This document shows, piece after piece, positions 15,481 through 28,942 of a stretch of 28,942 nucleotides of DNA (positions are counted from its first letter, which is position 1; the number at the start of each line of letters is the position of its first letter). The notes beneath the pieces are model-generated. The model made no database searches. It was not told the origin of the DNA and was given only the letters and a program-made list of their open reading frames with translations. A program made the translations under genes and the position numbers. Source of the DNA: a virus; the IMG/VR virus record IMGVR_UViG_3300036791_000294, positions 1 to 28,942 of that record; one strand, written 5' to 3'.

Positions 15481-15632
15481 TGCCAAGTACATCAGAGAAA
15501 CAGGCCGTAGCGATGATGCTAGCGGCTAAGGGTAAGGGCAACATTGGAATTCCGCCCTCTGTGGGCAAAGAGTTCCATGCAGCGGACAAGAAGACTGGGA
15601 TATTGAAAAGGAAGAAAAAGGCCGAAAAATGA
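15480..15632 (+). CDS. Small conserved phage virion-type protein (50 aa)
   Basis: This 50-aa gene overlaps the tailspike stop by one base (TGATG). The sequence MPSTSEKQAVAMMLAAKGKG, then IGIPPSVGKEFHAADKKTG matches a widely met phage mini-protein pattern: 'MPs.S..Q...M.aa.....gIP.sVgkEF..ADk'. It is often encoded beside structural or packaging genes of podophages. The tail is strongly basic (ILKRKKKAEK). The function of that family is not firmly known; a minor DNA- or head-associated component is a fair guess. Confidence 0.75.
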   Translation: MPSTSEKQAVAMMLAAKGKGNIGIPPSVGKEFHAADKKTGILKRKKKAEK

Positions 15633-15958
15633 TGGACCCGTTCGAGATCGATCCTAACGACCCTGAGCCGTTGGAGAACCTGATTCCACGGAAGATATTC
15701 TGGCTGGCACACCATTTGCACAACCTAATCTATATCAGGTTCTTCTATGAACAGATTGGGATGCAGCCACCGGAGTGGACCAAGAACGAGATGACACGAG
15801 TGCAAGGTAGGCTATTGGACCAGCTTGACCGTGAGAACAGTCAAGGTGGCAAATTCAGAAAGGAGATACAAGATGAAGCAAGGTCGAGCGGAGACGAAGA
15901 GAGAAGGGTGGAAGACCGAGCCCCACTCCACCAAAGCCAACTTAGACGGCGTATCTAA
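15629..15958 (+). CDS. 109-aa unknown helical protein
   Basis: This encodes 109 aa. ATGATG at 15629 offers two adjacent starts; the first overlaps the previous stop as ATGA. The N-terminus is acidic and proline-rich (DPFEIDPNDPEPLENL). An amphipathic helix with many aromatics (IFWLAHHLHNLIYIRFFYEQ) comes next, then a charged helical C-terminus. The last 29 codons also lie in the next gene in another frame (86-nt overlap), and that tail is low in hydrophobic residues, so it may be tolerated read-through. No family recognised. Confidence 0.6.
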   Translation: MMDPFEIDPNDPEPLENLIPRKIFWLAHHLHNLIYIRFFYEQIGMQPPEWTKNEMTRVQGRLLDQLDRENSQGGKFRKEIQDEARSSGDEERRVEDRAPLHQSQLRRRI

Positions 15959-16100
15959 TCTCGGTTTATCGAGACAGTTCCGGAAGGAGGAAGCACTTGA
16001 CGGACCAGGATTCAATCCCACTACCACCTCAAGGCCCGCTCTGGGGCCTGGGGGAGGACGCACTGTCCATCCCTCCGGGTCCCAAGGCAAACACAAATAA
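15873..16100 (+). CDS. 75-aa basic unknown protein
   Basis: This encodes 75 aa from ATG 15873, fixed by AGGAGA at 15861-15866 (6-nt spacer); the frame is open further upstream but without such a site. It is rich in Lys, Arg, Gly and Ser, with a disordered second half (TTTSRPALGPGGGRTVHP). From 15997 the same DNA also carries an open frame beginning at a TTG with its own GGAGG, so this segment may encode two proteins. No family recognised. Confidence 0.55.
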   Translation: MKQGRAETKREGWKTEPHSTKANLDGVSNLGLSRQFRKEEALDGPGFNPTTTSRPALGPGGGRTVHPSGSQGKHK

Positions 16101-16110
16101 GGAGGTTACG

Positions 16111-16314
16111 ATGACTGAAAAGGTTGAATACGACACGAAGCCAAACTTCGATGTCGAAGAGGTACTTTCACTTCTTGAAATCTTGCATGCATCAAAGGAC
16201 GAGCAGAATCTGAAACCGCTCTTCGACGATGCATACAGGGCGCTAGTTGCAACCGCTGCGGAGCTTAAGGAAAAGCTCGCAGCAAAACAGGAGGATGAAG
16301 ATGAAGGGCGGTAG
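16111..16314 (+). CDS. 67-aa acidic helical protein
   Basis: This encodes 67 aa. AAGGAGG ends 6 nt before ATG 16111, making this the preferred start. The same frame also runs back to a TTG at 15997 preceded by GGAGG, which would give a 105-aa form with a Pro/Gly-rich extension. The protein is mostly helical and acidic (FDVEEVLSLLEILHASKDEQ, then ALVATAAELKEKLAAKQ) and ends in a run of Glu and Asp. It could form a small helical bundle. Its size and place next to two anti-defence genes make it a candidate small effector, but no family is recognised. Confidence 0.65.
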   Translation: MTEKVEYDTKPNFDVEEVLSLLEILHASKDEQNLKPLFDDAYRALVATAAELKEKLAAKQEDEDEGR

Positions 16315-16555
16315 AGATATCCTTTCGGAGTACGGCCATGACATTCCGCACCCGCAAGCGCCGAGAGCGACTTCGGGCGGCGTCACGTCAGCCAAGCCGC
16401 TCAGCTATTCCCCACCCCAAGGCCCCATCGGTCAGCATCACGAAAGACCAGGTCTTGGCGGCGACAATCACGGCAACGCACACTGTCCAGTCGCCAATCG
16501 TGGTTCTGGAGGCGTTGGTCCTGGCGGCAGTCATGGTGGGAGTCAGCGTGGATGA
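16301..16555 (+). CDS. 84-aa Gly/Pro-rich conserved phage protein
   Basis: This encodes 84 aa. AGGAGG at 16289-16294 lies 6 nt before ATG 16301; an ATG 6 nt earlier is too close to it. The sequence GRDILSEYGHDIPHPQAPRA, then SGGVTSAKPLSYSPPQGP, then PGLGGDNHGNAH recalls a recurrent disordered podophage mini-protein with the pattern 'GRDIL.EYG.D.p.PQA.RA.sGGVT.AkPL.YsPPqGP ... NhGN'. Its role is unknown to me. It overlaps its upstream neighbour by 14 nt and starts the string that runs directly into the Tad2-like gene (ATGA). Confidence 0.7.
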   Translation: MKGGRDILSEYGHDIPHPQAPRATSGGVTSAKPLSYSPPQGPIGQHHERPGLGGDNHGNAHCPVANRGSGGVGPGGSHGGSQRG

Positions 16556-16776
16556 TTAACATGGACATTGGTGAGGCTGTTCATCGACTCAATCAGGGCC
16601 AGAAAGTCCGTCGTGCTGGCTGGAATGGCAAGGGCATGTGGCTTGAGAAGCAGGTGCCAGATTCAGGCTCCAAGATGACCTTGCCATATGTGTACATGTC
16701 TACGGCGCAGGGCGATCTTGTGCCGTGGCTGTGTTCCCAGACAGACCTGTTGGCGAAAGATTGGGAGGTAGCATGA
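16552..16776 (+). CDS. tad2: Tad2-family (DUF2829) anti-defence protein
   Basis: This encodes 74 aa, the usual length for the family. The ordered pattern is that of DUF2829: an initial helix (IGEAVHRLNQGQKVRR), the RAGWNGKGMWL block (21-31), KMTLPYVYMSTAQGDLVPW (41-59), and the ending CSQTDLLAKDWEVA (61-74). Published work shows Tad2, a DUF2829 protein, blocks Thoeris immunity by binding and sequestering the glycocyclic ADP-ribose signal, and some members also bind CBASS cyclic dinucleotides. It acts in the host cytoplasm as an oligomeric sponge. ATG 16552 overlaps the previous stop by four bases, and its own stop overlaps the Acb2-like start. Family call is strong; which ligand it binds is not visible. 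Confidence 0.85.
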   Translation: MINMDIGEAVHRLNQGQKVRRAGWNGKGMWLEKQVPDSGSKMTLPYVYMSTAQGDLVPWLCSQTDLLAKDWEVA

Positions 16777-17012
16777 TGGATGTTCAACGACAACTAAGCT
16801 TCGGCGAGAAGGCTGTGGGTCTGACCTTCAATCCGAGCGGTGATTCTAGGGTCAATGAAATGAAGCAGCTTTACGCTAGGATCATTGACCTTATGCATGA
16901 GCTCCGAGGGCAGAGTATCGACCAGGAACAGGTACGTCTTGCCTCGGTATCTATCACCGAAGCCCAAGGTGCCCAGATGTGGGCAGTTAAGGCCATAACT
17001 TGGAGGGTTTAA
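16773..17012 (+). CDS. acb2: Acb2/Tad1-domain anti-CBASS-type protein
   Basis: This encodes 79 aa. The start is at ATG 16773 inside the Tad2-like stop (ATGA), with GGGAGG just upstream. From residue 18 the protein follows the Acb2/Tad1 hairpin domain: LTFNPSGDSRVNEMKQLYAR, then IIDLMHELRGQ, a turn, and RLASVSITEAQGAQMWAVKA. This is two helices with the conserved FNPSG opening and a final 'TxAQMWAVKA' helix. Acb2 proteins assemble into small oligomers that soak up cyclic di- and trinucleotides made by CBASS cyclases; Tad1 relatives capture Thoeris signals. The paired position after a Tad2-family gene supports a joint anti-signalling role. Ligand choice cannot be told from sequence. Confidence 0.85.
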   Translation: MMDVQRQLSFGEKAVGLTFNPSGDSRVNEMKQLYARIIDLMHELRGQSIDQEQVRLASVSITEAQGAQMWAVKAITWRV

Positions 17013-17823: not shown

Positions 17824-20454
17824 ATGTCTGAGAATGTTATCCAGACCTCATTTGCGGCTGGCGAACTGTCTCCGAGTCTATTCGCTCGGGTGGACTTCGC
17901 AAAGTATCATTCTGGCGCCGCTAAAATGCGGAACTTCTTTGTTGATTATCGCTCTGGCGCTTCTACACGTCCAGGGACAGAATTCATTCGCCCGGCTGGC
18001 GGCAAGAAGGTTAGGTTAATACGGTTTCAGCAGTCGACTACAGTCAGTTACGCTCTGGAATTCGGCAACAATTATCTCAGGTTCATTTCCCAGGGCGGCT
18101 CGGTGGTCCTAGGGGCGGTTGGTATTTTCACCGTACACTTTGGTTCCCAGACCGGGATAAATGCCCCTGGCTTCACCTTTATTCCAGGCCAGCTGTTGTT
18201 CATTAGTGGAGTGAATAGCGTTCCACAAATGAACAATCGGTATTATCTTGTCGATAACATAGCTGGCAGCACAGCTGAGATTAAGGATTCGCTGACAAAC
18301 GAATCTATTGATTCTAGCACTTGGCCGCCTTATGGCGGTGATGCTGTATTGCAAGTGGTTTACACTATCGCTACTCCATATAGCGCCGATGAATTGTCGA
18401 TGCTCAAATTTTCACAAAAAGTTAACAAGATGAATTTAACTCACCCAAACCATCCACCGTATGTTTTGACCCTTATTGACGCCACTAACTGGACCCTAGT
18501 CCCAGCGACCATCGGAACGAGTATAGGACCGCCGACTATAGCTTCCGCAGTTTCATCGGGAACAGGTTCGGTCGCCTACAAGTATACGGTCACGTCCGTA
18601 GATGCAAATGGGCAAGAGTCAGGCCCTAGCGGCGTCTTTGTCATACCTAACGGCATTGACTTGAGGTTGATTACCGGTGGCGCAACCGCTGTAACGGGGT
18701 CCAATCAGATTGTGTGGAACCCTTCGCCTGGTGCTGCCTTTTACAACATCTATGGATCGTCTCCGTCTTACCAGGCGCTAAATGCCGATGTTGGTGGCGT
18801 TGGCTTTATAGGTTCTGTCGATGCTTCGGTTACACAATTCGTTGATTCTAACATAGCGCCAGACTTTGCTCGCAGTCCACCGATCAGTGAGGACCCGTTT
18901 GCCAACCCGCCTGTTAATCCACAGGTTTCTAGCTATTTCCAACAGCGCCTGGCTTACGCTAATGGCGGTGGTAATTTGGTCCAAGAGTTTTGGATGAGTA
19001 AAACCGGAACAGATTACAACTTTGATATATCGAATCCAGTTCAGGCCGATGACGCCATAACTGGAGAACTGGTTAGCCTGGAGGTCAATGAAATCAAGTC
19101 AATGGTTCCGATGCCAACAGGCTTGATTATGCTGACCACCAAGGGTGCCTGGTTAGTTTCCGGTGGCTCTGGCGGTGTCGCCAGTCAGGGCGGCCCTATT
19201 ACGCCAACTAGCGTTACTGCAACTTCCCAGGCTTACATCGGCGCCAATGACGTTCCGCCAATCCTGGTTAATTACGACATTCTCTATGTGCAAGTTAAGG
19301 GTTCAATCGTCAGAGATTTAACGTACAACATTTACGCCAACATCTACACCGGTAATGACATCTCGATTCTGTCAAATCACTTGTTCTATGGCCATCAAAT
19401 TCTGGAGTGGGCCTATGCCGAGGAACCGTTCAAGGTCATCTGGGCCGTTCGTGAGGATGGAATTTTGCTGTCGCTGACTTTGCTTAAAGAACAAGACATG
19501 TACGGTTGGGCGCAACATGACACCCTTGGCAATTTTATGTCTGTGGCGTCTATTACCGAGGGCCAGTTCGATGCTACCTACGTTGCTGTTAGTCGCCCGT
19601 TGTTTGGGCAGACTGATCCAGTTACTACGATCGAGCGCCTTGACAATCGTATGTTTCCATTCGGCGCTGAGGATGCTTGGTGCGTCGATTGTGGAGTTCA
19701 GAACGTCCCAAATGCACCGCTGACGACTTTAGTAGTCGTTCGCAATCCTGATCCGACCACCGTTAGCCTAGCGACTACGGACCCATACTTCTACAATGGT
19801 CAGGTTGGTTGGGTAATTCGGGTCGGTGGAGGCATCATTAAGACCACGTCTTTTGATATTGCTTCTCGAACCATGCAAGGGAAGGTTATTCAACCAATAG
19901 CCGACACAGTTCCTGACGACTTTCAGGGACGGTACAAACCTGCTCCACCGTCGACTTGGACAATAGACCAGCCATTTAACCAAGTGTTTGGCCTGGATCA
20001 CCTTGAGGGTCAGTTGGTGTCGGTTCTGGCCGATGGCGGTGTGGTTAGGGGAGAGGTGGTTCATAACGGTTCAATTTCACTTCCTGCTCCGGCTACTAGG
20101 GCCATAGTCGGCCTTGGTTTCCAGGCACAGCTGCAAACCATGCCGCTAGACGTAGGACAAGAGGTGAACACCATTCAAGGCAAACGGAAGAAAGTTGGGG
20201 CGCTAACGGTTCGAGTGAAAGAAAGTCGTGGACTTAAGGCCGGAAGGACTTTCAGCACACTAACACCCATCAAAGAACTGAACCGTGTCACGCTAATGGG
20301 ATTGCCAGTGGCGCTGATTACTGCCGATGAACGCATAGTCATGGACCCGCTATGGGACGTTCCTGGGCAGATTTGTTTGCAAATTGACGATCCGTTACCA
20401 GCGACAGTTCTTGGTGTCATTCCCGAGGTTGTAATAGGGGACAGCGCCAAATGA
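17824..20454 (+). CDS. Tail tubular protein B-like nozzle protein (T7 gp12 / Bbp13 type)
   Basis: This 876-aa protein makes the end of the short tail. The N-terminus is diagnostic: VIQTSFAAGELSPSLFARVD, KYHSGAAKMRNFFVDYRSGA and TRPGTEFI (residues 5-55). It is followed by YALEFGNNYLRFI, then long beta-rich segments with WSPS-like repeats (QIVWNPSPGAAFYNIYGSS, a fibronectin-like insert about 235-345). The later core has QRLAYANGGGN and PTSVTATSQAYIGANDVPP. The end (KRKKVGALTVRVKESRGLKAG) is also as in the family. Length agrees with Bbp13-like rather than T7 gp12 proteins. It begins 1 nt after the adaptor stop and overlaps the gp13-like gene by four bases. Confidence 0.9.
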   Translation: MSENVIQTSFAAGELSPSLFARVDFAKYHSGAAKMRNFFVDYRSGASTRPGTEFIRPAGGKKVRLIRFQQSTTVSYALEFGNNYLRFISQGGSVVLGAVGIFTVHFGSQTGINAPGFTFIPGQLLFISGVNSVPQMNNRYYLVDNIAGSTAEIKDSLTNESIDSSTWPPYGGDAVLQVVYTIATPYSADELSMLKFSQKVNKMNLTHPNHPPYVLTLIDATNWTLVPATIGTSIGPPTIASAVSSGTGSVAYKYTVTSVDANGQESGPSGVFVIPNGIDLRLITGGATAVTGSNQIVWNPSPGAAFYNIYGSSPSYQALNADVGGVGFIGSVDASVTQFVDSNIAPDFARSPPISEDPFANPPVNPQVSSYFQQRLAYANGGGNLVQEFWMSKTGTDYNFDISNPVQADDAITGELVSLEVNEIKSMVPMPTGLIMLTTKGAWLVSGGSGGVASQGGPITPTSVTATSQAYIGANDVPPILVNYDILYVQVKGSIVRDLTYNIYANIYTGNDISILSNHLFYGHQILEWAYAEEPFKVIWAVREDGILLSLTLLKEQDMYGWAQHDTLGNFMSVASITEGQFDATYVAVSRPLFGQTDPVTTIERLDNRMFPFGAEDAWCVDCGVQNVPNAPLTTLVVVRNPDPTTVSLATTDPYFYNGQVGWVIRVGGGIIKTTSFDIASRTMQGKVIQPIADTVPDDFQGRYKPAPPSTWTIDQPFNQVFGLDHLEGQLVSVLADGGVVRGEVVHNGSISLPAPATRAIVGLGFQAQLQTMPLDVGQEVNTIQGKRKKVGALTVRVKESRGLKAGRTFSTLTPIKELNRVTLMGLPVALITADERIVMDPLWDVPGQICLQIDDPLPATVLGVIPEVVIGDSAK

Positions 20455-20864
20455 CACGGATAAAGAGGCTGAATACGTCGCAAGCTAAGCAATTTATGAA
20501 TGCTATCAGTTTTGATAACATTGGTCGAAGGACCATGGATTTTTGCTTAACGATGAGTGTGGTCATTTGGGCTGGATTCATCGACGATGTTATGGTCTGT
20601 ATTTGGGGCGTCATTCCTCCAACACTGATGTCCAATCAAGCCTATCTGTGGCTGTTCACCACCGACGCATTGAAAGGCCATGAGTTTTTGTTGGTTCGGC
20701 ATTCTCAGCTAGTGGTCAAAGAAATCCTAGATGAGTACCCATCTATCGTTGGTCACGCAATAGCGGGATCGGACAAGAGTATTCGTTGGTTGAGATGGCT
20801 AGGCGCTAAGTTTGGTGAGCCACAGGGAATGGCCATTCCGTTTAGGATATCCCGTCATGGCTAG
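20451..20864 (+). CDS. T7 gp13-like internal protein (DUF2833 type)
   Basis: This 137-aa protein is coupled to the nozzle gene by ATGA. The C-terminal half (AYLWLFTTDALKGHEFLLVR, then LVVKEILDEYPSIVGHAIAG, then SIRWLRWLGAKFG) fits the DUF2833 family. That family includes T7 gp13, a protein needed for assembly of the internal virion core, with an acetyltransferase-like fold that looks inactive. Position between the nozzle and gp14-like genes is the same as in T7. The N-terminal 60 residues contain a hydrophobic stretch (LTMSVVIWAGFI) that is part of the fold rather than a membrane helix. Confidence 0.8.
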   Translation: MTRIKRLNTSQAKQFMNAISFDNIGRRTMDFCLTMSVVIWAGFIDDVMVCIWGVIPPTLMSNQAYLWLFTTDALKGHEFLLVRHSQLVVKEILDEYPSIVGHAIAGSDKSIRWLRWLGAKFGEPQGMAIPFRISRHG

Positions 20865-21549
20865 TCCGGTAGCAATGGCTGGAATGGGTGCTAGCGCCGT
20901 CAGTGGCATACTTGGCGCCGTTGGAGCCCAGACCAAAGCCCAAGGCCAGCAGCTTTCAATTCAAGGCCAAATGCTCCAGACGATGGGGCAGGCCTATCAG
21001 CTTGACGTACAGGCCGCCGAGTACGGAACCAAGGCTAATATGGCGGACTACCAAGCTGCCGTCGCAGATCAGAACAAAAAGATAGCGCTACAACAAGCTG
21101 ATTACTCTGTCTCAGTCGGTGATACCCAGGCTACTGAGTCTGGAATGAAGACACGGGCGGAGATAGGTAGCGCCAAGGCATTTCAGGGTGCATCAGGTTT
21201 GAACGTCAACACCGGCTCGTCGGTCGATGTTCGGCAATCAATGACTGAGATAGGCTATTACGACCAGCAAACCATCCGGGCTAATGCTGCGAAGACCGCT
21301 TGGGGTTATGAGGTTGAGGCAACGCAAGATGAGGCTCAGGGAGCGCTATATACAATGTCGGCGGCCTTGGATCGCACACAAGCAGCAGCAGCGACAACTG
21401 GTGCGACGATGACTAGAGCGGCGCTGCCGTTAGAACAGCAAGCTATGGGCCTGGCGCAGACATCTGGAACGATTGACACTTTATCGTCGCTAGTCGGCGC
21501 TGGTAGCTCGGTAGCCGATAAGTGGATGAAGTGGAGCACGGTGTCGTAA
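20857..21549 (+). CDS. T7 gp14-like internal virion/ejection protein
   Basis: This encodes 230 aa from ATG 20857, whose ATGGCTAG overlaps the previous stop; AGGA lies upstream. It opens with a hydrophobic Ala/Gly segment (MASPVAMAGMGASAVSGILG) that may insert in the outer membrane. A long Ala/Gln-rich helical body follows (QGQQLSIQGQMLQTMGQAYQ, and GTKANMADYQAAVADQN). This is the signature of gp14-type core proteins, which form the first channel during DNA ejection. The short motif GASGLNVNTGSSVDV (about 115-129) is common in these. Place between gp13- and gp15-like genes supports the call. Confidence 0.8.
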   Translation: MASPVAMAGMGASAVSGILGAVGAQTKAQGQQLSIQGQMLQTMGQAYQLDVQAAEYGTKANMADYQAAVADQNKKIALQQADYSVSVGDTQATESGMKTRAEIGSAKAFQGASGLNVNTGSSVDVRQSMTEIGYYDQQTIRANAAKTAWGYEVEATQDEAQGALYTMSAALDRTQAAAATTGATMTRAALPLEQQAMGLAQTSGTIDTLSSLVGAGSSVADKWMKWSTVS

Positions 21550-23480
21550 TGGCCGAGCAACAACCAGGTCGAGTTCCGTACAGCGGAGTTCCCACAGTAT
21601 CTCCGGAGATGCCTCGTGGGAATGTGCAGCTTAATCTTCACATTCCAAACCTGTCATTTACCGATGCTATTGGTAAAGGCCTAGCTAACCTCGGTCATGG
21701 CTATGGCGTTCTTGGTCAAGCTACTGAGGCTGTGGGAGCAGCGTTTTCTCACGCAGGTCAAGTGGCTGATAAGAGCGGCACTGAGCTTTTTAATCGAGCG
21801 GTGGCGCTGCAAGAAATTACAAACGAGACAGCGACTAACGAGGCAGTAGCGGGTTACGATGTAGCGGATGGAAAGGCCCAAGCTGATTTCCTATCGACAA
21901 AGGGCACCAACGCCAGTGGTCAGTTCGCACAGTTCTCGAAGGATGCCCAGGAGCGGCGCAATAAGTTCCGAGACACACTAGCGAACGATTCTCAGAAACG
22001 TTTGTTCGACAACAAAACTATGAACATGATGGGCCGAACGATTCGGGAAGGCGCTAGACATGCGGGAGTGGAGCAAAAGAACGCATACATCAGTTCACTT
22101 GACTCTAATGTAGCGACTAAGTTCCGAGAGGTGTCCGACCATCCATTTGACGATGACCTTTACAATAGCTCTTTGCCAGAACTGCGGGAACTAATCGAGA
22201 AGAAACACCAGGCGCTAGGTCATTACGGCGATGAGGCCAAGAATGAATACACTGAGGTGACTCAGAAGCTGTTAGCTGATCGGCTGACCCATCAGTCTTT
22301 GGAACAGCCAAACCAAGCATGGGACAACTATCAAAAAGCTAAAGAGTTTATGCCTGAGGCTATGCGGGACCAGGTTGAACATACTCTAATGGACCGTATC
22401 AAAGACTCTGCGACTTTGGGCGCTCATGATAAGGTGATGAAGGATTACCTTTCTGGCGCTCCTGACGAGTCAAAAACCATCCAGGAAAGAGTCGATGCGG
22501 GCGTAAAAGAGTTGCCGCAAGTTATCAAAGACCATCCGGAACAGTTGCGGAAGGCCGAAAAGGAACTCCGTCAGCGGATTGAAGGCAGCGTTCGAGATTA
22601 CCAACAACAGAGAAGTATAAACGTCTATAACCACAGAAACGACACGTATAGGATTTTGAACGCTGAAAAGCCGCCGTTGAAGCTTGAGGACTTCCTAGCC
22701 ATTCCTGAGGGCAAAAGAATTTACGAAGCGTCAAATGATATAGAGCGGGCTCAGATTAAAGAATTGATTTATACAATGGCCAATCGTGAATTCAGGGTTG
22801 ATGCAGTAACAAGTCAAAAGAACCGTGAAAAGTATTTAACTCAGTTCCTTACCAACCGTGATGAGTTCATGAAGTCAATGGAGGACATGCGAAGCGTAAT
22901 GGGCGGAATGAATGGCTCGGACAGAAGGACCATATTGAATCTTTACGAAAAGGTTTTGAAGAGTCCAGCGGCCGATCCAGATGTGGCTAAAGGAATGTCG
23001 TGGCTCAAGCAGCAGTTCGGTCCGCAGATGCGTGAACTTGGTGTTTATGACTCACCACGCCGAGGTGAAGCAACCGAAGATTGGGATCACCTGCATAACG
23101 GCGTTTATGAAGCGATACAAGATTGGAGGGCCAAACACAAAGGCGCAATGCCGAGCCAAGAAGAGTTCAACAAGAACATAGCGCCGACTATTCTCAAAGA
23201 TATTAAAGGAACAACGTGGCCGTTCTCGTATCTTCCTTGGGCCACGCCGGACCAGCCAGCGTACTGGAAGGTCCCAATGCAGTCAGAGTGGGAAGAAAAG
23301 GAGCGGGCCAAAATCCAAGCAGAGACAGGTACTCCGGCCGCCGACATTCCACAGGAGGACATAAACAAGCGTTGGATACGTTACCAGTATCAACTAGCGA
23401 TAAAGCCAAAGCCAACAGCACAGCCTCATCCGTCTCAAGGCCTTAGGAAACGTGCGGCACCGGTCCCGGCAGGCGAATGA
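21549..23480 (+). CDS. T7 gp15-like internal virion/ejection protein
   Basis: This 643-aa protein probably belongs to the ejected core that spans the periplasm. ATG 21549 shares a base with the previous TAA; an in-frame GTG at 21522 is the alternative. It is almost wholly helical. The first 85 residues contain a Gly/Ala helix (FTDAIGKGLANLGHGYGVLG). A segment with FLSTKGTNASGQFAQFSKD and RRNKFRDTLAND (about 108-145) is recurrent in podophage gp15 equivalents, as is YGDEAKNEYTEVTQKLLADR (about 224-243). The C-terminus is Pro/Lys-rich. It overlaps the giant ejection gene by ATGA. Confidence 0.82.
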   Translation: MAEQQPGRVPYSGVPTVSPEMPRGNVQLNLHIPNLSFTDAIGKGLANLGHGYGVLGQATEAVGAAFSHAGQVADKSGTELFNRAVALQEITNETATNEAVAGYDVADGKAQADFLSTKGTNASGQFAQFSKDAQERRNKFRDTLANDSQKRLFDNKTMNMMGRTIREGARHAGVEQKNAYISSLDSNVATKFREVSDHPFDDDLYNSSLPELRELIEKKHQALGHYGDEAKNEYTEVTQKLLADRLTHQSLEQPNQAWDNYQKAKEFMPEAMRDQVEHTLMDRIKDSATLGAHDKVMKDYLSGAPDESKTIQERVDAGVKELPQVIKDHPEQLRKAEKELRQRIEGSVRDYQQQRSINVYNHRNDTYRILNAEKPPLKLEDFLAIPEGKRIYEASNDIERAQIKELIYTMANREFRVDAVTSQKNREKYLTQFLTNRDEFMKSMEDMRSVMGGMNGSDRRTILNLYEKVLKSPAADPDVAKGMSWLKQQFGPQMRELGVYDSPRRGEATEDWDHLHNGVYEAIQDWRAKHKGAMPSQEEFNKNIAPTILKDIKGTTWPFSYLPWATPDQPAYWKVPMQSEWEEKERAKIQAETGTPAADIPQEDINKRWIRYQYQLAIKPKPTAQPHPSQGLRKRAAPVPAGE

Positions 23481-26400
23481 CAGACACGTATTCAGCCGAT
23501 CCCAATGTAGTTGATTTTAAAGAACAGCAGCGCCGTCGTGTGTCTGCTGTCGTTATGGATTCCTTTGATCAAAATCCAGATGAAGCTGCGAGGGCACAGC
23601 AGATAGGTGCAGCTACCGGCACTCCGTCATCGATTATTGGAATGGACTCTAAGGGTTATGAAGATAACTTCAAGCGGATTACGGCCTCGCAATTAGTAAC
23701 CAACGACGATGCATTAAGCGATTTCGTTACCCGCCACCCAGAAGCAGCGGCGGTGGCGCAAGACGATTGGGATAATCTTAGCGAATATGCAGAGGCGTTG
23801 CTGAATGTAGGCTACAAGGGTGCGTTTAAGGCAGGTGAACAACCACCGAAGTATGCACCACCCATAACACCCTACACGTTTTGGAACGCTGGTAAAGCAG
23901 CTATTGAAGGCTTTAATGAAGCCTATGGGTCCGGTCCAGATGTACTGGCGCCATATAGAACTGAAGATGGCAAAATCATCGATAAGCAGACCCTTACTCA
24001 ATACGTTGCACAGGCTGCGACTTCGGCGGCAGAAAGGCCAGTTATTGGCGCTCTCTTGTCTTTGCCGTGGAACCTGGCATATGGCGCTTTGTCGGTAGGC
24101 CCAAAATCAATGGCGGCCCTAGGTGCGTTGAGTGAGGCAGTAAATCAAGGCGGTTTGCAGTTTGCAATTGATAGCGGCTTGGACCCGTATGAAGCCAAGA
24201 GATTCGCTAGGGAGGCTGCTAGCTTTGTTGAATTTGAATTGACCGACATGGCCCGATCGAAAATGCATGGGCCAGAAGCCAAGCAGTTCAAGGAGGATTA
24301 TCCTGGCGTTGATCCCCGAATGGCCGAATCCGCTAGACTAGAGGGCCTGACCCGGGAAGCTCAACAGGCACTTGCTCCGTTGATGGTAACCACACGGCTG
24401 ATGAAACCTTATATCGAGGCTGGTATGGAGCCTCCGAAGGGATTGCATCCGCTGCTTGATTTGGTGATTCAAGAGGCAGAAAAACGTGAGATTGAGTCGC
24501 TAGAGAAAGCCGATCAGGCGGGCAATAAAGTCCAGATTAAAGAGCGGAGCCCAATTACCTTCGATCAATTTACCCGTGGTGTCCTGGGCGAGAGGCATGT
24601 TTACGTCGACGCTGACATCGCTCGTCAAAACGCTGAGGCTCTTGATTGGGTCCCTGAGTTGCAGCAGCAACTTCAAGACGAGGGTCCTAGCGGCAGGGTA
24701 AGGATACCGCTGGAAGATTGGAATAAGGCCGACCCGGAGATTAAAAAGCTATTCAAAGATGATTATTCTATCCATTCCGATGGTAATACAACCAACGACT
24801 GGAACGAGATTCCACCTGGTCGTGCATCTGAATATGTGGAAGATTGGACCGACAACAGTAATTCGACTCGGACCTGGGACGCTGTAACGTCACTGAGAAG
24901 AGCCAACAAACTCGAACCGCTGGGAGGGATGCCATCGGAGGTTCCAAAGCGGTTGCAGCTGGTTCGTGGTAAGCCTGTTCCTTATCCTGAGTTAAAGGGT
25001 GAACACTCGTTTATGATAACCGACGAGATTGGCCGCCATGTGGCCGATCTTGAAATCGATACCCGAGACGGAGGCAAAGACCTTCACGTTAAGTGGTTGG
25101 GTGGACGGTATGTGCCGCATCAACAGATTCAGCCAGTGACCAATATTTTCGGCCCGACGTTGATGAGAGATTTGTTCAGGCAGATCAGAGACGAATTTCC
25201 TGAGGCCGAAACCATCTCTGGCCGCAGAGTTTCTGGCGCCAGGGAAGGCACGATTAAAGAAGGCGGTGAGGTCAAAGTCAATATAGACGGCTTGCGTGCT
25301 GAGGTTGAAGACCCAGCGGTTCTAGGCGAGCATACCGCTAACTTTATGGACATTGCTGAGAGTGGCGATTGGGCCAAGACCGGAGCAGGGGGTGAATATC
25401 TACCGTTATTCCGAGATAATCTGCCAGTTCATGCACAGAAGATAGCCGACGACATTGAGAAAGTTTTTGCTCGGCTCCTTCCGAAGGAGATGGAGGGCCG
25501 TGCATTTGCCACGAAGCGTGTATTATTGGATGGCCGTGACGTTAGAGGATATTACCAACCATATTATGATCGGATGCCACTAATTACTTGGTCGCTTACT
25601 TATGGTCATCCAGGCGTCGCTAGACACGAAGCAATGCATTTCCTTAAAGCATACGGGTATATATCAGATGAAGAGTGGGGTATTTTGATCCAAGCGGCAG
25701 AGAAAGGAAACTGGATCGAGAAGCATGACATTGACAAAATGTACCCCGGTGAGTCGCTGTCCAACCGTTTGGAAGAGGCTATAGCTAAAGAGTTAGAGGA
25801 CTGGTCAAAAGATAAACCAGCGACAGCCTATTCAGGAGTCTTTGGGCGAATACGAAAGTTGTTGGAAGAGCTTCACGATTACTTTAAGGAAGTCCTTTTC
25901 GGTAAAGAACCTACACCCGAGAACATCTTTCAGAAGATCGAGCGCGGTACGGTCGCTGAGAGGCCAATGGGTGAGGTCGAGACACCGACGTACGATCCAC
26001 GGACAGTTCAGGTCGCTGGGCCGTTACCGGCTGGAATGGCGGCACGGTTGAGAGGTCCAAGAGCGCCAGAACTTCCAGGGATGCGGCCGTTGGAAGAGCG
26101 GGCCGTTCACGAACCTGGGGCGCTACTGCCGAAGCGTCGCCAGGAAATGATGGAAAAGGAGATAAAGGCTGAGACAGCGAGGGATTTAGAATTCCGCCGT
26201 AAGCAAGCGGCAGAAGATGTTAAAGAACAAGCCACGAAAGAATACCAAGACGAGGCAGCTTCACGATTGCCGAAGATCGAAGAAGAAGTCGCTAACATGC
26301 CTGGGTTTGCTATCGACACGTTTTTCAGAGAGGGAAAGATTCAGGGCCAAGAACTTGACAAGAAGCCCAAAATTAGAAGTGACATGATCCCGCCTGAATA

Positions 26401-28942
26401 CGAAAGCGTGGTTCCAACCGCTTGGAGAGCGAAGAAAGGTGAGAGCCCAGATGTTCTGGCTGGACTGTTTGGTCAGGCCGATGCGACGGAGTTTTTCGAG
26501 CGGATAGCGGAGCATCAATTATCTCGTGGCGAGATGACACAAAAGGCATTTTTCAAAAAGTCTGTTGGGATCAAACTCACTAGGGAGATGGAAAGGGAGT
26601 TTGGTAAACAGGGCGACGCCGTTATGAAGGCGGCCGAGGATCATGTTTTTCACGACAATCAATTGAATCTCCTTCACCAAGACACAATGCGGGTAGCGAC
26701 AGAGCTTGGGCAAGAGCATTCGTTTACTCGGGAAGATGTTATCAGGCAGCAAGAGCGATTGCTTAATCAAACGAAAATGAAAGATGTTGACTTCAAGAAA
26801 TATAGCGGGGCATTGTATCGGAATGGAGGTAAAGCTGAGGACTCGATACTGCGAGGGGACTTCCGAAAGGCTTATGTCCATGTTCAGGGCCGTGAGAACG
26901 CCTATGCAATGACATTGGGCATAAAGAAACTTGAGAAAGAACAAGCGGCACATGCGAGGTTGAGATCGCTGTATCGCAAGCGTGATCCAGAAGGCCGGGA
27001 CAGTGAGCTAACTCCATTCATTCACAATGTCCTTGAGCGAATTGGTGAAACCACTCGGCCTAGGACCGACATCGAAACTGAGATGGCAGCTACGTCGTTT
27101 AAAGACATGGCTGGCCTTGATGAATTTCTTAGGAGTCCAGAGAACGATATTGGAATAATGCCTAGCTTTTTGCGGGACACGAATTGGAGGCGTGATCCGG
27201 AGCAGATGACGGTCGAGGAATGGCGTGGCGTTAACGATTTTCTACACTTTTTGGATGGGTACAGTCGTGATAACAAAACCGTAACGGTAGCCGATCGGAA
27301 GTTTCAGTTCGAGGAAATGATCGAGAAGATGGTCGATCAGATAGTGGCCCAGAGCCCACGACTTCCTGGAACTGGCGACACTGTTTTTACCAATGTACCA
27401 AAAGGTAAGATGAAAGAGTTGGCACATATCTATTTTGTTGAAAGTCTGCATATGGAGACGATGTTTAACTGGATGGACAAGAACAATCCAAGAGGAATAT
27501 TCAATCAGGCCATTATCCGTGACTTTACTAGCGCCGCTAATTACGCCGATAAGCTGGATAAGGAGGCCGGGGCGCTATTGAAAAAGCTAACGTCGATAAA
27601 AAACCCCAATCGCTTGGTTAAGCAGGGTCTATTTATAAACCCTGATACCGGTGAGCGTATGCAGTTTACCCGAAAGCAAATTCTAGGCATCCTTGCTAAC
27701 ATGGGCAATCCAAGCAATTTCTACAAACTGCTTGATAGCTACAACATACCGAGGGAGATGGCCGATAAGGTTAAGGATTTGGTGTGGGCCAACGTAACTA
27801 GGGAAGACGTTTCTCGAATGACGCAGCTTGGCGACATCTTCAAAAAATATAAGAAGATGTCGGACACGATGTACCGGGGTCTGTACAGACAAGCGCCGAT
27901 GAATATTGACCTATGGTCTATCCAGACACCATTTAAGGAACTTGGGCAGAATGGACTCGTTGAGGGGTGGTATTATCCGATCGTACACGATTTCAATTTC
28001 AAACAGAGTAGTCCAAAGTTAGCTGCACCTAGTCCGCTGGAGTTCCCGGTTTGGACCAAGTCGAACTTACCGACCGCTAACTACACCAAACAAAGAACCG
28101 CTTACACAGGGCCGGTGTTGCTCGATGTAGATGGGTTTCAGGCCACGTTGGCCATGATGGTTAAGGACATTGCTTTCAGGCCGACGTTGATGAATATGAA
28201 CAAAATCTTTAAGAACCCTGAGTTCAGGCGGGCTGTCAGAGAACATTGGGGCCCACATTACGAGAACCTGCTTGATCCGTTTTTACAGGACGTTAGTGGA
28301 TACCGTAGGATAGACAACAAGAATCAGTCCATCCTTGCACAGTCTCTCCAGTTCGTTAGACAGAACATAGTCTCTCATATGGTTGGACTCAACCCAGCGA
28401 CTATCGCCAAGCACACAACTACAGCGGCGCTACAAAGCATGGCCGAGGTTGGAGTTGGCGCTTGGGCCAGAGAGATGGCGATCATAACTGGACAGGCATT
28501 TAATCCATTTGCTGGTGAACGCAATTGGACCTTCGCTATGAATAAGAGCGAAGAACTTCAACGAAGGCATCGTAATGCGGTGGATGGCATATCCGGAAAT
28601 TTCGACAGGACATTTGGAAAGTTGAAAGAAGCCGATGTAATGCGAGACTTTCTCCACGACCTCACTGAGAGGCCGTTACCGCAATCATTGAGACTAGCGA
28701 TAAATGGTTTCCAGGGCAAATATCTCCGCTTGCGGGACACCATGCATTTCTATGAAGCTTCGCCTATAGCGTTTCTTGATTTGCTATCGGCGGTGCCAAC
28801 GTGGCTGGCTAGGTATCGTCAGGCGAAGATCGGTGGAGAGAACGAAGGTAACGCTATCTTCATGGCAGACCGTGCCGTTCGTCGAGCCCATGGATCGTCG
28901 GCCATAACCAGTCGCTCGGCGTTGATGAGAAACAATGCGATA
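23477..28942 (+). CDS. Giant polyvalent ejection protein (gp16-position), 3' end beyond window
   Basis: The frame is open for 1822 codons from ATG 23477 (in the gp15-like stop) to the last base, with no stop, so the gene is cut by the window edge. Order and size match the largest ejected core protein of podophages (T7 gp16, 1318 aa), but it is longer and modular. Segments seen are a linker-type domain with VYVDADIARQ and LDWVPELQQQL (about 375-400), and an acetyltransferase-like FGPTLMRDLFRQI, then SGRRVSGAR (about 558-588). Next is a metallopeptidase-like HEAMH (717-721) with a following EEAIAKELE (766-774) that could supply the third zinc ligand. IFQKIERGTVAER (817-829) and a long helical region follow. 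Near the end is ADRAVRRAHGSS (about 1797-1808), frequent in such proteins. It probably forms part of the ejection channel; whether the peptidase is active is unknown. Confidence 0.85.
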   Translation, partial: MTDTYSADPNVVDFKEQQRRRVSAVVMDSFDQNPDEAARAQQIGAATGTPSSIIGMDSKGYEDNFKRITASQLVTNDDALSDFVTRHPEAAAVAQDDWDNLSEYAEALLNVGYKGAFKAGEQPPKYAPPITPYTFWNAGKAAIEGFNEAYGSGPDVLAPYRTEDGKIIDKQTLTQYVAQAATSAAERPVIGALLSLPWNLAYGALSVGPKSMAALGALSEAVNQGGLQFAIDSGLDPYEAKRFAREAASFVEFELTDMARSKMHGPEAKQFKEDYPGVDPRMAESARLEGLTREAQQALAPLMVTTRLMKPYIEAGMEPPKGLHPLLDLVIQEAEKREIESLEKADQAGNKVQIKERSPITFDQFTRGVLGERHVYVDADIARQNAEALDWVPELQQQLQDEGPSGRVRIPLEDWNKADPEIKKLFKDDYSIHSDGNTTNDWNEIPPGRASEYVEDWTDNSNSTRTWDAVTSLRRANKLEPLGGMPSEVPKRLQLVRGKPVPYPELKGEHSFMITDEIGRHVADLEIDTRDGGKDLHVKWLGGRYVPHQQIQPVTNIFGPTLMRDLFRQIRDEFPEAETISGRRVSGAREGTIKEGGEVKVNIDGLRAEVEDPAVLGEHTANFMDIAESGDWAKTGAGGEYLPLFRDNLPVHAQKIADDIEKVFARLLPKEMEGRAFATKRVLLDGRDVRGYYQPYYDRMPLITWSLTYGHPGVARHEAMHFLKAYGYISDEEWGILIQAAEKGNWIEKHDIDKMYPGESLSNRLEEAIAKELEDWSKDKPATAYSGVFGRIRKLLEELHDYFKEVLFGKEPTPENIFQKIERGTVAERPMGEVETPTYDPRTVQVAGPLPAGMAARLRGPRAPELPGMRPLEERAVHEPGALLPKRRQEMMEKEIKAETARDLEFRRKQAAEDVKEQATKEYQDEAASRLPKIEEEVANMPGFAIDTFFREGKIQGQELDKKPKIRSDMIPPEYESVVPTAWRAKKGESPDVLAGLFGQADATEFFERIAEHQLSRGEMTQKAFFKKSVGIKLTREMEREFGKQGDAVMKAAEDHVFHDNQLNLLHQDTMRVATELGQEHSFTREDVIRQQERLLNQTKMKDVDFKKYSGALYRNGGKAEDSILRGDFRKAYVHVQGRENAYAMTLGIKKLEKEQAAHARLRSLYRKRDPEGRDSELTPFIHNVLERIGETTRPRTDIETEMAATSFKDMAGLDEFLRSPENDIGIMPSFLRDTNWRRDPEQMTVEEWRGVNDFLHFLDGYSRDNKTVTVADRKFQFEEMIEKMVDQIVAQSPRLPGTGDTVFTNVPKGKMKELAHIYFVESLHMETMFNWMDKNNPRGIFNQAIIRDFTSAANYADKLDKEAGALLKKLTSIKNPNRLVKQGLFINPDTGERMQFTRKQILGILANMGNPSNFYKLLDSYNIPREMADKVKDLVWANVTREDVSRMTQLGDIFKKYKKMSDTMYRGLYRQAPMNIDLWSIQTPFKELGQNGLVEGWYYPIVHDFNFKQSSPKLAAPSPLEFPVWTKSNLPTANYTKQRTAYTGPVLLDVDGFQATLAMMVKDIAFRPTLMNMNKIFKNPEFRRAVREHWGPHYENLLDPFLQDVSGYRRIDNKNQSILAQSLQFVRQNIVSHMVGLNPATIAKHTTTAALQSMAEVGVGAWAREMAIITGQAFNPFAGERNWTFAMNKSEELQRRHRNAVDGISGNFDRTFGKLKEADVMRDFLHDLTERPLPQSLRLAINGFQGKYLRLRDTMHFYEASPIAFLDLLSAVPTWLARYRQAKIGGENEGNAIFMADRAVRRAHGSSAITSRSALMRNNAI

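Follow-up and report, generated by a model that had tools for sequence, protein, structure and literature searches.

MPTases are the commonest domains of the polyvalent proteins of phages and plasmids, for which 12 MPTase clades have been published (Iyer et al. 2017, PMC5512222). Residues 700 to 1000 of protein Bbp10 of Bordetella phage BPP-1 are a seed of CLCA_X, a zincin family found mostly in phages and plasmids (Lenart et al. 2013, PMC3650047). Among ejected giant proteins, N4 vRNAP has an HExxH domain (C1) and, after it, a region of about 1100 residues that is mostly helical (C2), as described in its structure paper (PMC12633501). PhiM1 has a T7-type ejectosome, a three-protein ejection complex that includes a tetrameric ejection protein (8vb2, PMC11440229).

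We analyzed a stretch of viral DNA of 28,942 bases (the window), which is the whole IMG/VR record. The open reading frame at 23477-28942 runs off the end of the record. Re-reading it confirmed the first-pass annotation: at least 1822 codons are free of stops, HEAMH lies at residues 717 to 721, and EEAIAKELE begins at residue 766, 45 residues past H721. Sixteen full-length homologs extend 199 to 213 residues beyond the window end (two others extend 180 and 230), so the full-length protein is probably about 2030 residues long, with about 205 missing from the window. The features of the locus are as follows.

20451-20864, + strand: internal virion protein (phrog_308, E 2.1e-16)
20812-21549, + strand: internal virion protein (phrog_418, E 1.7e-16)
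21522-23480, + strand: upstream neighbor, an endolysin-like internal protein of 652 aa (phrog_10475, "endolysin", E 1.2e-9)
23477-28942, + strand: large ejection-type protein (ATG start, 1822 codons, stop-free, open at the contig end)
23549-23797, + strand: LPD22 (PF18834), residues 25-107 (Pfam E 4.6e-14, over the curated cut-off)
24914-26083, + strand: exchangeable cassette, residues ~480-869 (missing in relative L123; at least 11 content changes on the tree of the C-terminal region)
24989-25312, + strand: conserved segment with an RVSGAR motif, residues ~505-612 (conserved in 35 aligned sequences)
25439-26026, + strand: zincin-like metallopeptidase domain, residues ~655-850 (48-sequence alignment, AlphaFold model, structural matches, Bbp10 profile match)
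25625-25639, + strand: HEAMH, residues 717-721, predicted to supply two zinc histidines and the general-base glutamate (H717, E718, and H721 invariant in 48/48)
25772-25786, + strand: EEAIA, residues 766-770, with E766 or E767 as the predicted third zinc ligand (both invariant in 48/48)
26084-28942, + strand: constant helical C-terminal body, residues 870-1822 and beyond (phrog_9880; common to phages; AlphaFold model)

The large gene is the last big gene of an operon of internal virion proteins, and the tail genes also lie upstream. The stop of 21522-23480 overlaps its start, in the gene order of bbp11-bbp10 in BPP-1, and a similar operon order occurs in BPP-1, Pseudomonas phage PfDIW6, and vir555. 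A match to phrog_9880 (E 1.1e-64) covers the C-terminal half. In addition, the body matches Bbp10-like proteins in 22 phage records, including BPP-1, phages of Caulobacter, Vibrio, Cobetia, and Pseudomonas, cyanobacterial phages, and a Methanomicrobiales-assigned virus. The Methanomicrobiales-assigned virus vir555 (L015, BK063671.1) has the same ejection-type operon with phrog_418 and phrog_9880. A scan of genome contigs with one narrow pattern taken from the body found no prophage copies.

Of the solved structures, the one that best matches the AlphaFold model of the body (pLDDT 76.6) is the tetrameric PhiM1 ejection protein (8vb2), at a Z of 6.4 over 205 residues, a value that may reflect a common helical arrangement. 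That an ejection protein ranks first among the solved matches of the modeled body is suggestive; a Foldseek search of this model against the PDB gave no significant match. In PhiM1, a transglycosidase-like domain lies inside the ejection protein, whereas the endolysin-like protein of the window is encoded by a separate gene. The label of ejection protein given in the first-pass annotation is borne out by gene order and family: the large protein is most likely an ejection protein of a short-tailed phage (podovirus), which would enter the host ahead of the DNA.

The same annotation had referred to sponges in the late operon. A run of small genes at 15629-17012 (+) does include a Tad2-like (Thoeris anti-defense 2-like) gene at 16552-16776 (+) (Pfam E 1.2e-24), so this part of the remark has support, but nothing ties the Tad2-like gene to the large protein. 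Of the genes around it, 15629-15958 and 16247-16555 drew no match in Pfam, and a third, 16725-17012, falls in phrog_717, a family with no assigned function.

The HExxH motif arises in 6.1% of composition-preserving shuffles of the large protein, and HExxH followed within 10 to 70 residues by EExxA arises in 0.2%. At these frequencies, the motif seen in the sequence alone is a fair but weak hint. In addition, the window domain matched no peptidase model in Pfam, NCBIfam, and PDB sequence searches; weak matches to GSIII_N and YscX, which fall on the region of the Glu helix, were set aside as fortuitous. The frequency of HExxH in shuffles (6%) and the lack of a Pfam peptidase match in the protein both favor the reading that HExxH arose by chance in a structural protein rich in helices. 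The relatives argue otherwise. H717, E718, H721, L737, E766, and E767 never vary in the 48 aligned relatives, and the spacing from H721 to the EE pair ranges from 44 to 64 residues in the family and is most often 45. Because H717, E718, H721, E766, and E767, and thus the motif and its third ligand, are invariant across all 48, the motif lies beyond chance.

Neither the domain nor the whole protein, used as a single-sequence query against IMG/VR, gave any match. As such queries were insufficient, three distant relatives were aligned to start the scan. This alignment-based scan recovered 71 loci. Every one has HExxH close to the match, and EE.(I/V)A is present in most. The majority of the loci came through a pattern that itself includes HExxH; the loci found solely via a second pattern, which does not contain HExxH, all still have it. 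A match on a Paraburkholderia plasmid, in a frame broken by stops, was dropped. Together with the zincin order of the model and the profile homology to a member of a published zincin family, both described below, this conservation in relatives refutes the chance reading in practice, and we give it almost no weight.

An AlphaFold model of residues 640 to 890 (mean pLDDT 66, core blocks 85 to 98) runs from an N-terminal helix through strands to the HExxH helix (73-86 of the model) and the Glu helix (122-140), which carries the EE pair. Its core fold elements, namely, a helix, a three-stranded sheet, the HExxH helix, and the Glu helix, are ordered as in zincins, and the same order has been described for the zincin-like MPTases of polyvalent proteins (PMC5512222). 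The first-pass annotation had called the spacing compatible with zinc ligands and proposed structure prediction as a check. In the model, the two histidines are not placed apart; both lie on one helix, with the glutamates on the next. Zinc would be held by H717, H721, and either E766 or E767, and E718 would activate water.

The top VIA matches of the model are mostly zincins, including the lethal factor catalytic domain, YfcM, PprI, CapP, ArdC, and a Zn-dependent peptidase. The best of them has a Z of 4.6 and an rmsd of 5.2 over 142 residues, and all others score no higher. Ranked highest is anthrax lethal factor with its catalytic domain, in which the histidine-to-glutamate spacing is also 45. 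A Foldseek search of the same model against the PDB returned nothing significant (best E 0.36), and the best matches in a structural search of a viral library were very large phage proteins, some of them named as podovirus proteins. The structural matches are individually weak; combined with the motif, they speak for a zincin, and a zincin-type metallopeptidase domain in the large protein is a supported assignment.

Bbp10 is among the closest described systems. Profile alignment of the window domain with the HExxH domain of BPP-1 Bbp10 gave an hhalign probability of 94% (E 1.3e-7, 176 columns), with the motifs in register. Bbp10 and Rauchvirus-like proteins (phrog_9880) have the body in common with the window protein, at 21 to 22% identity over about 930 residues. 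Bbp10 likewise follows an endolysin or lysis-protein gene in its operon, and its HExxH domain lies directly upstream of the body. The body homologs examined all have an upstream HExxH, of a subtype other than that of the window: STFLHExGH ... HEQFARGFExYLxEGKAPS in the Bbp10 subtype versus GTARHEAIH ... EEAIAE in the window family. The window domain is thus homologous to the Bbp10 seed domain of CLCA_X, the comparison having been made with that seed rather than with the full published set.

The polyvalent-protein MPTases resemble the window model in having the HExxH helix followed by the Glu helix after a small sheet. Polyvalent proteins also share with the window protein the LPD22 partner, found in 53 of the 53 N-terminal regions scanned, and a late virion gene setting. 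Since Bbp10 already belongs to CLCA_X, MPTases outnumber every other domain in polyvalent proteins, and LPD22 fits this picture, the domain is not new, and the large protein is a further member of the polyvalent-protein kind. One enzyme domain was recognized in the window protein; in a relative, L162, the zincin is joined to an ART-like domain. The same zincin subtype also occurs in phage proteins of about 1100 to 4200 residues (L037-L088). Most of these have only this domain in common with the window protein, which indicates that it moves from one large phage protein to another.

The motif had also been described as lying after an acetyltransferase-like segment. A conserved segment, the one with RVSGAR, does precede it at residues ~505-612. 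The acetyltransferase identity was not supported: Pfam and PDB profile searches gave this segment no GNAT match and no match to any enzyme class.

To avoid selecting for the motif, relatives were gathered with the C-terminal body alone, and 67 had enough upstream sequence. HExxH, whose absence from close homologs was named in the first-pass annotation as evidence against a peptidase, is kept upstream of the body in 60 of the 67, about 150 to 380 residues before the matched body start, and is missing from the other 7. In 45 of these 60 carriers, the ligand motif is of the window type, EExxA or EExA. A second type, marked by NEDEFIAEAFSNP-like sequence, accounts for most of the others, and one bears a weak resemblance to peptidase family M90. 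In the seven relatives without HExxH, a window-domain profile found no copy of the domain. Three of these seven hold ART-PolyVal-like domains, only one of which passes the Pfam cut-off. The slot therefore contains a window-type zincin, the other zincin type, an ADP-ribosyltransferase-like domain, or nothing. These contents changed at least 11 times on a body tree built by a quick method with no mixture model, and the well-supported branches alone force several changes.

The clearest case is a pair of sister relatives that are 62% identical in the body. L123 (1503 aa) has an empty slot, and L189 has one filled with ART-like sequence, with about 437 residues where L123 has about 23. L123 skips window residues 480 to 869: its residues 402 and 404 align to window residues 479 and 870, so that one L123 residue lies between the flanks of the gap. 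A single empty-slot locus may be an assembly error, since IMG/VR loci are uncultured fragments; L161 is likewise short and without the zincin. The LPD22 N-terminal part and the body are thus constant, and the middle (480-869) is a swappable, sometimes empty cassette. A peptidase that is swapped and sometimes missing is probably not indispensable for ejection, and, judging from the sequences of the relatives, it is likely to be optional cargo and not a core component of the ejection machine.

A few of the relatives depart from the common layout in other ways. L136:3334-6045 carries HExxH twice in its N-terminal region (residues 246 and 725), and L154 has a twin-arginine signal-like stretch (TAT_signal) at residues ~246-266 (Pfam, E 2.4e-6) in the middle of its N-terminal part. 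On the contig that holds L027 and L170, the frame ends at 976 residues and the body goes on downstream, which leaves a choice between a split gene, a frameshift, and an assembly error.

The order of an HExxH domain followed by a helical region parallels that in N4 vRNAP, although the window protein has no RNA polymerase. The profile match between the two is local, around HExxH. Homology of the body to C2 of N4 vRNAP was not supported, with an hhalign probability of 1% over 65 aligned columns, a result compatible with a distant relation. This parallel bears on whether the zincin domain could be a structural part of the ejection machine, either a scaffold that binds metal or a component of the channel, in which catalysis has been lost or does not matter. 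HExxH domains do sit at the same place in BPP-1-like proteins and, as C1, in N4 vRNAP, and the available part of the N4 structure paper describes no activity for C1 (PMC12633501). However, E718 is invariant along with both histidines, which goes beyond the needs of metal binding alone, and the domain is lost or replaced by unrelated domains while the body stays. We therefore regard a structural role as improbable.

A more serious rival is that the zincin processes the large protein itself, during assembly or after ejection, and so frees the body or a neighboring segment. Iyer et al. (2017) put forward self-processing for polyvalent proteins, and their discussion favors it for at least some members, such as DdrB of P1, which is cut before packaging (PMC5512222). 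Some zincin is kept in 60 of 67 relatives, always upstream of the body, and the AlphaFold model joins it to the body by a low-confidence linker. For an optional effector, retention of some zincin in 90% of relatives is a high figure, one that self-processing could also explain and that keeps it alive as a rival. On the other hand, N4 vRNAP, with an HExxH domain of its own, is packaged unprocessed (PMC5512222), and complete proteins without HExxH exist, including L189, which has other cargo, and those with an empty slot.

The distribution of cargo bears on the same point. Among 46 zincin carriers, 10 lack both the RVSGAR segment and an ART and so have no other recognized cargo to free, and L189 has the segment and an ART without a zincin; the presence of the two was scored partly via sequence patterns, and some ART-like assignments are weak. 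Presence of an ART and of a zincin are only mildly anti-associated (Fisher p = 0.006, uncorrected for kinship). That the zincin and other cargo occur without each other is awkward for a pure cargo-release role. Self-processing is possible, and we would sooner doubt than expect it.

We judge that the zincin as a passenger enzyme ranks first, self-processing second, and a structural role third. The passenger reading, to which we give an even chance, places the zincin in the largest internal protein of a podovirus as an enzyme acting on the host after ejection. The constant frame, made of the LPD22 N-terminal part and the long helical body, would serve virion assembly and DNA entry. Between the two, an exchangeable enzymatic cassette would be carried, here a zincin-like zinc metallopeptidase. 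The zincin would be packaged with the ejection protein and delivered at infection, where, at an early stage of entry, it may cut a single host protein or a few of them.

More tentatively, the family as a whole could be a delivery chassis, with a constant frame and one docking slot that is repeatedly loaded with various host-modifying enzymes, among them several zincin types and ADP-ribosyltransferase-like domains, or with none. If so, the set of injected anti-host enzymes would be readable by slot position. Whether the zincins of polyvalent proteins process the proteins that carry them or attack the host is an old open question. This family offers natural controls for it, as relatives with the same body hold a zincin, a different enzyme, or nothing in the slot. 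These filled, other-enzyme, and empty versions turn the question into a comparison that is feasible in culturable relatives.
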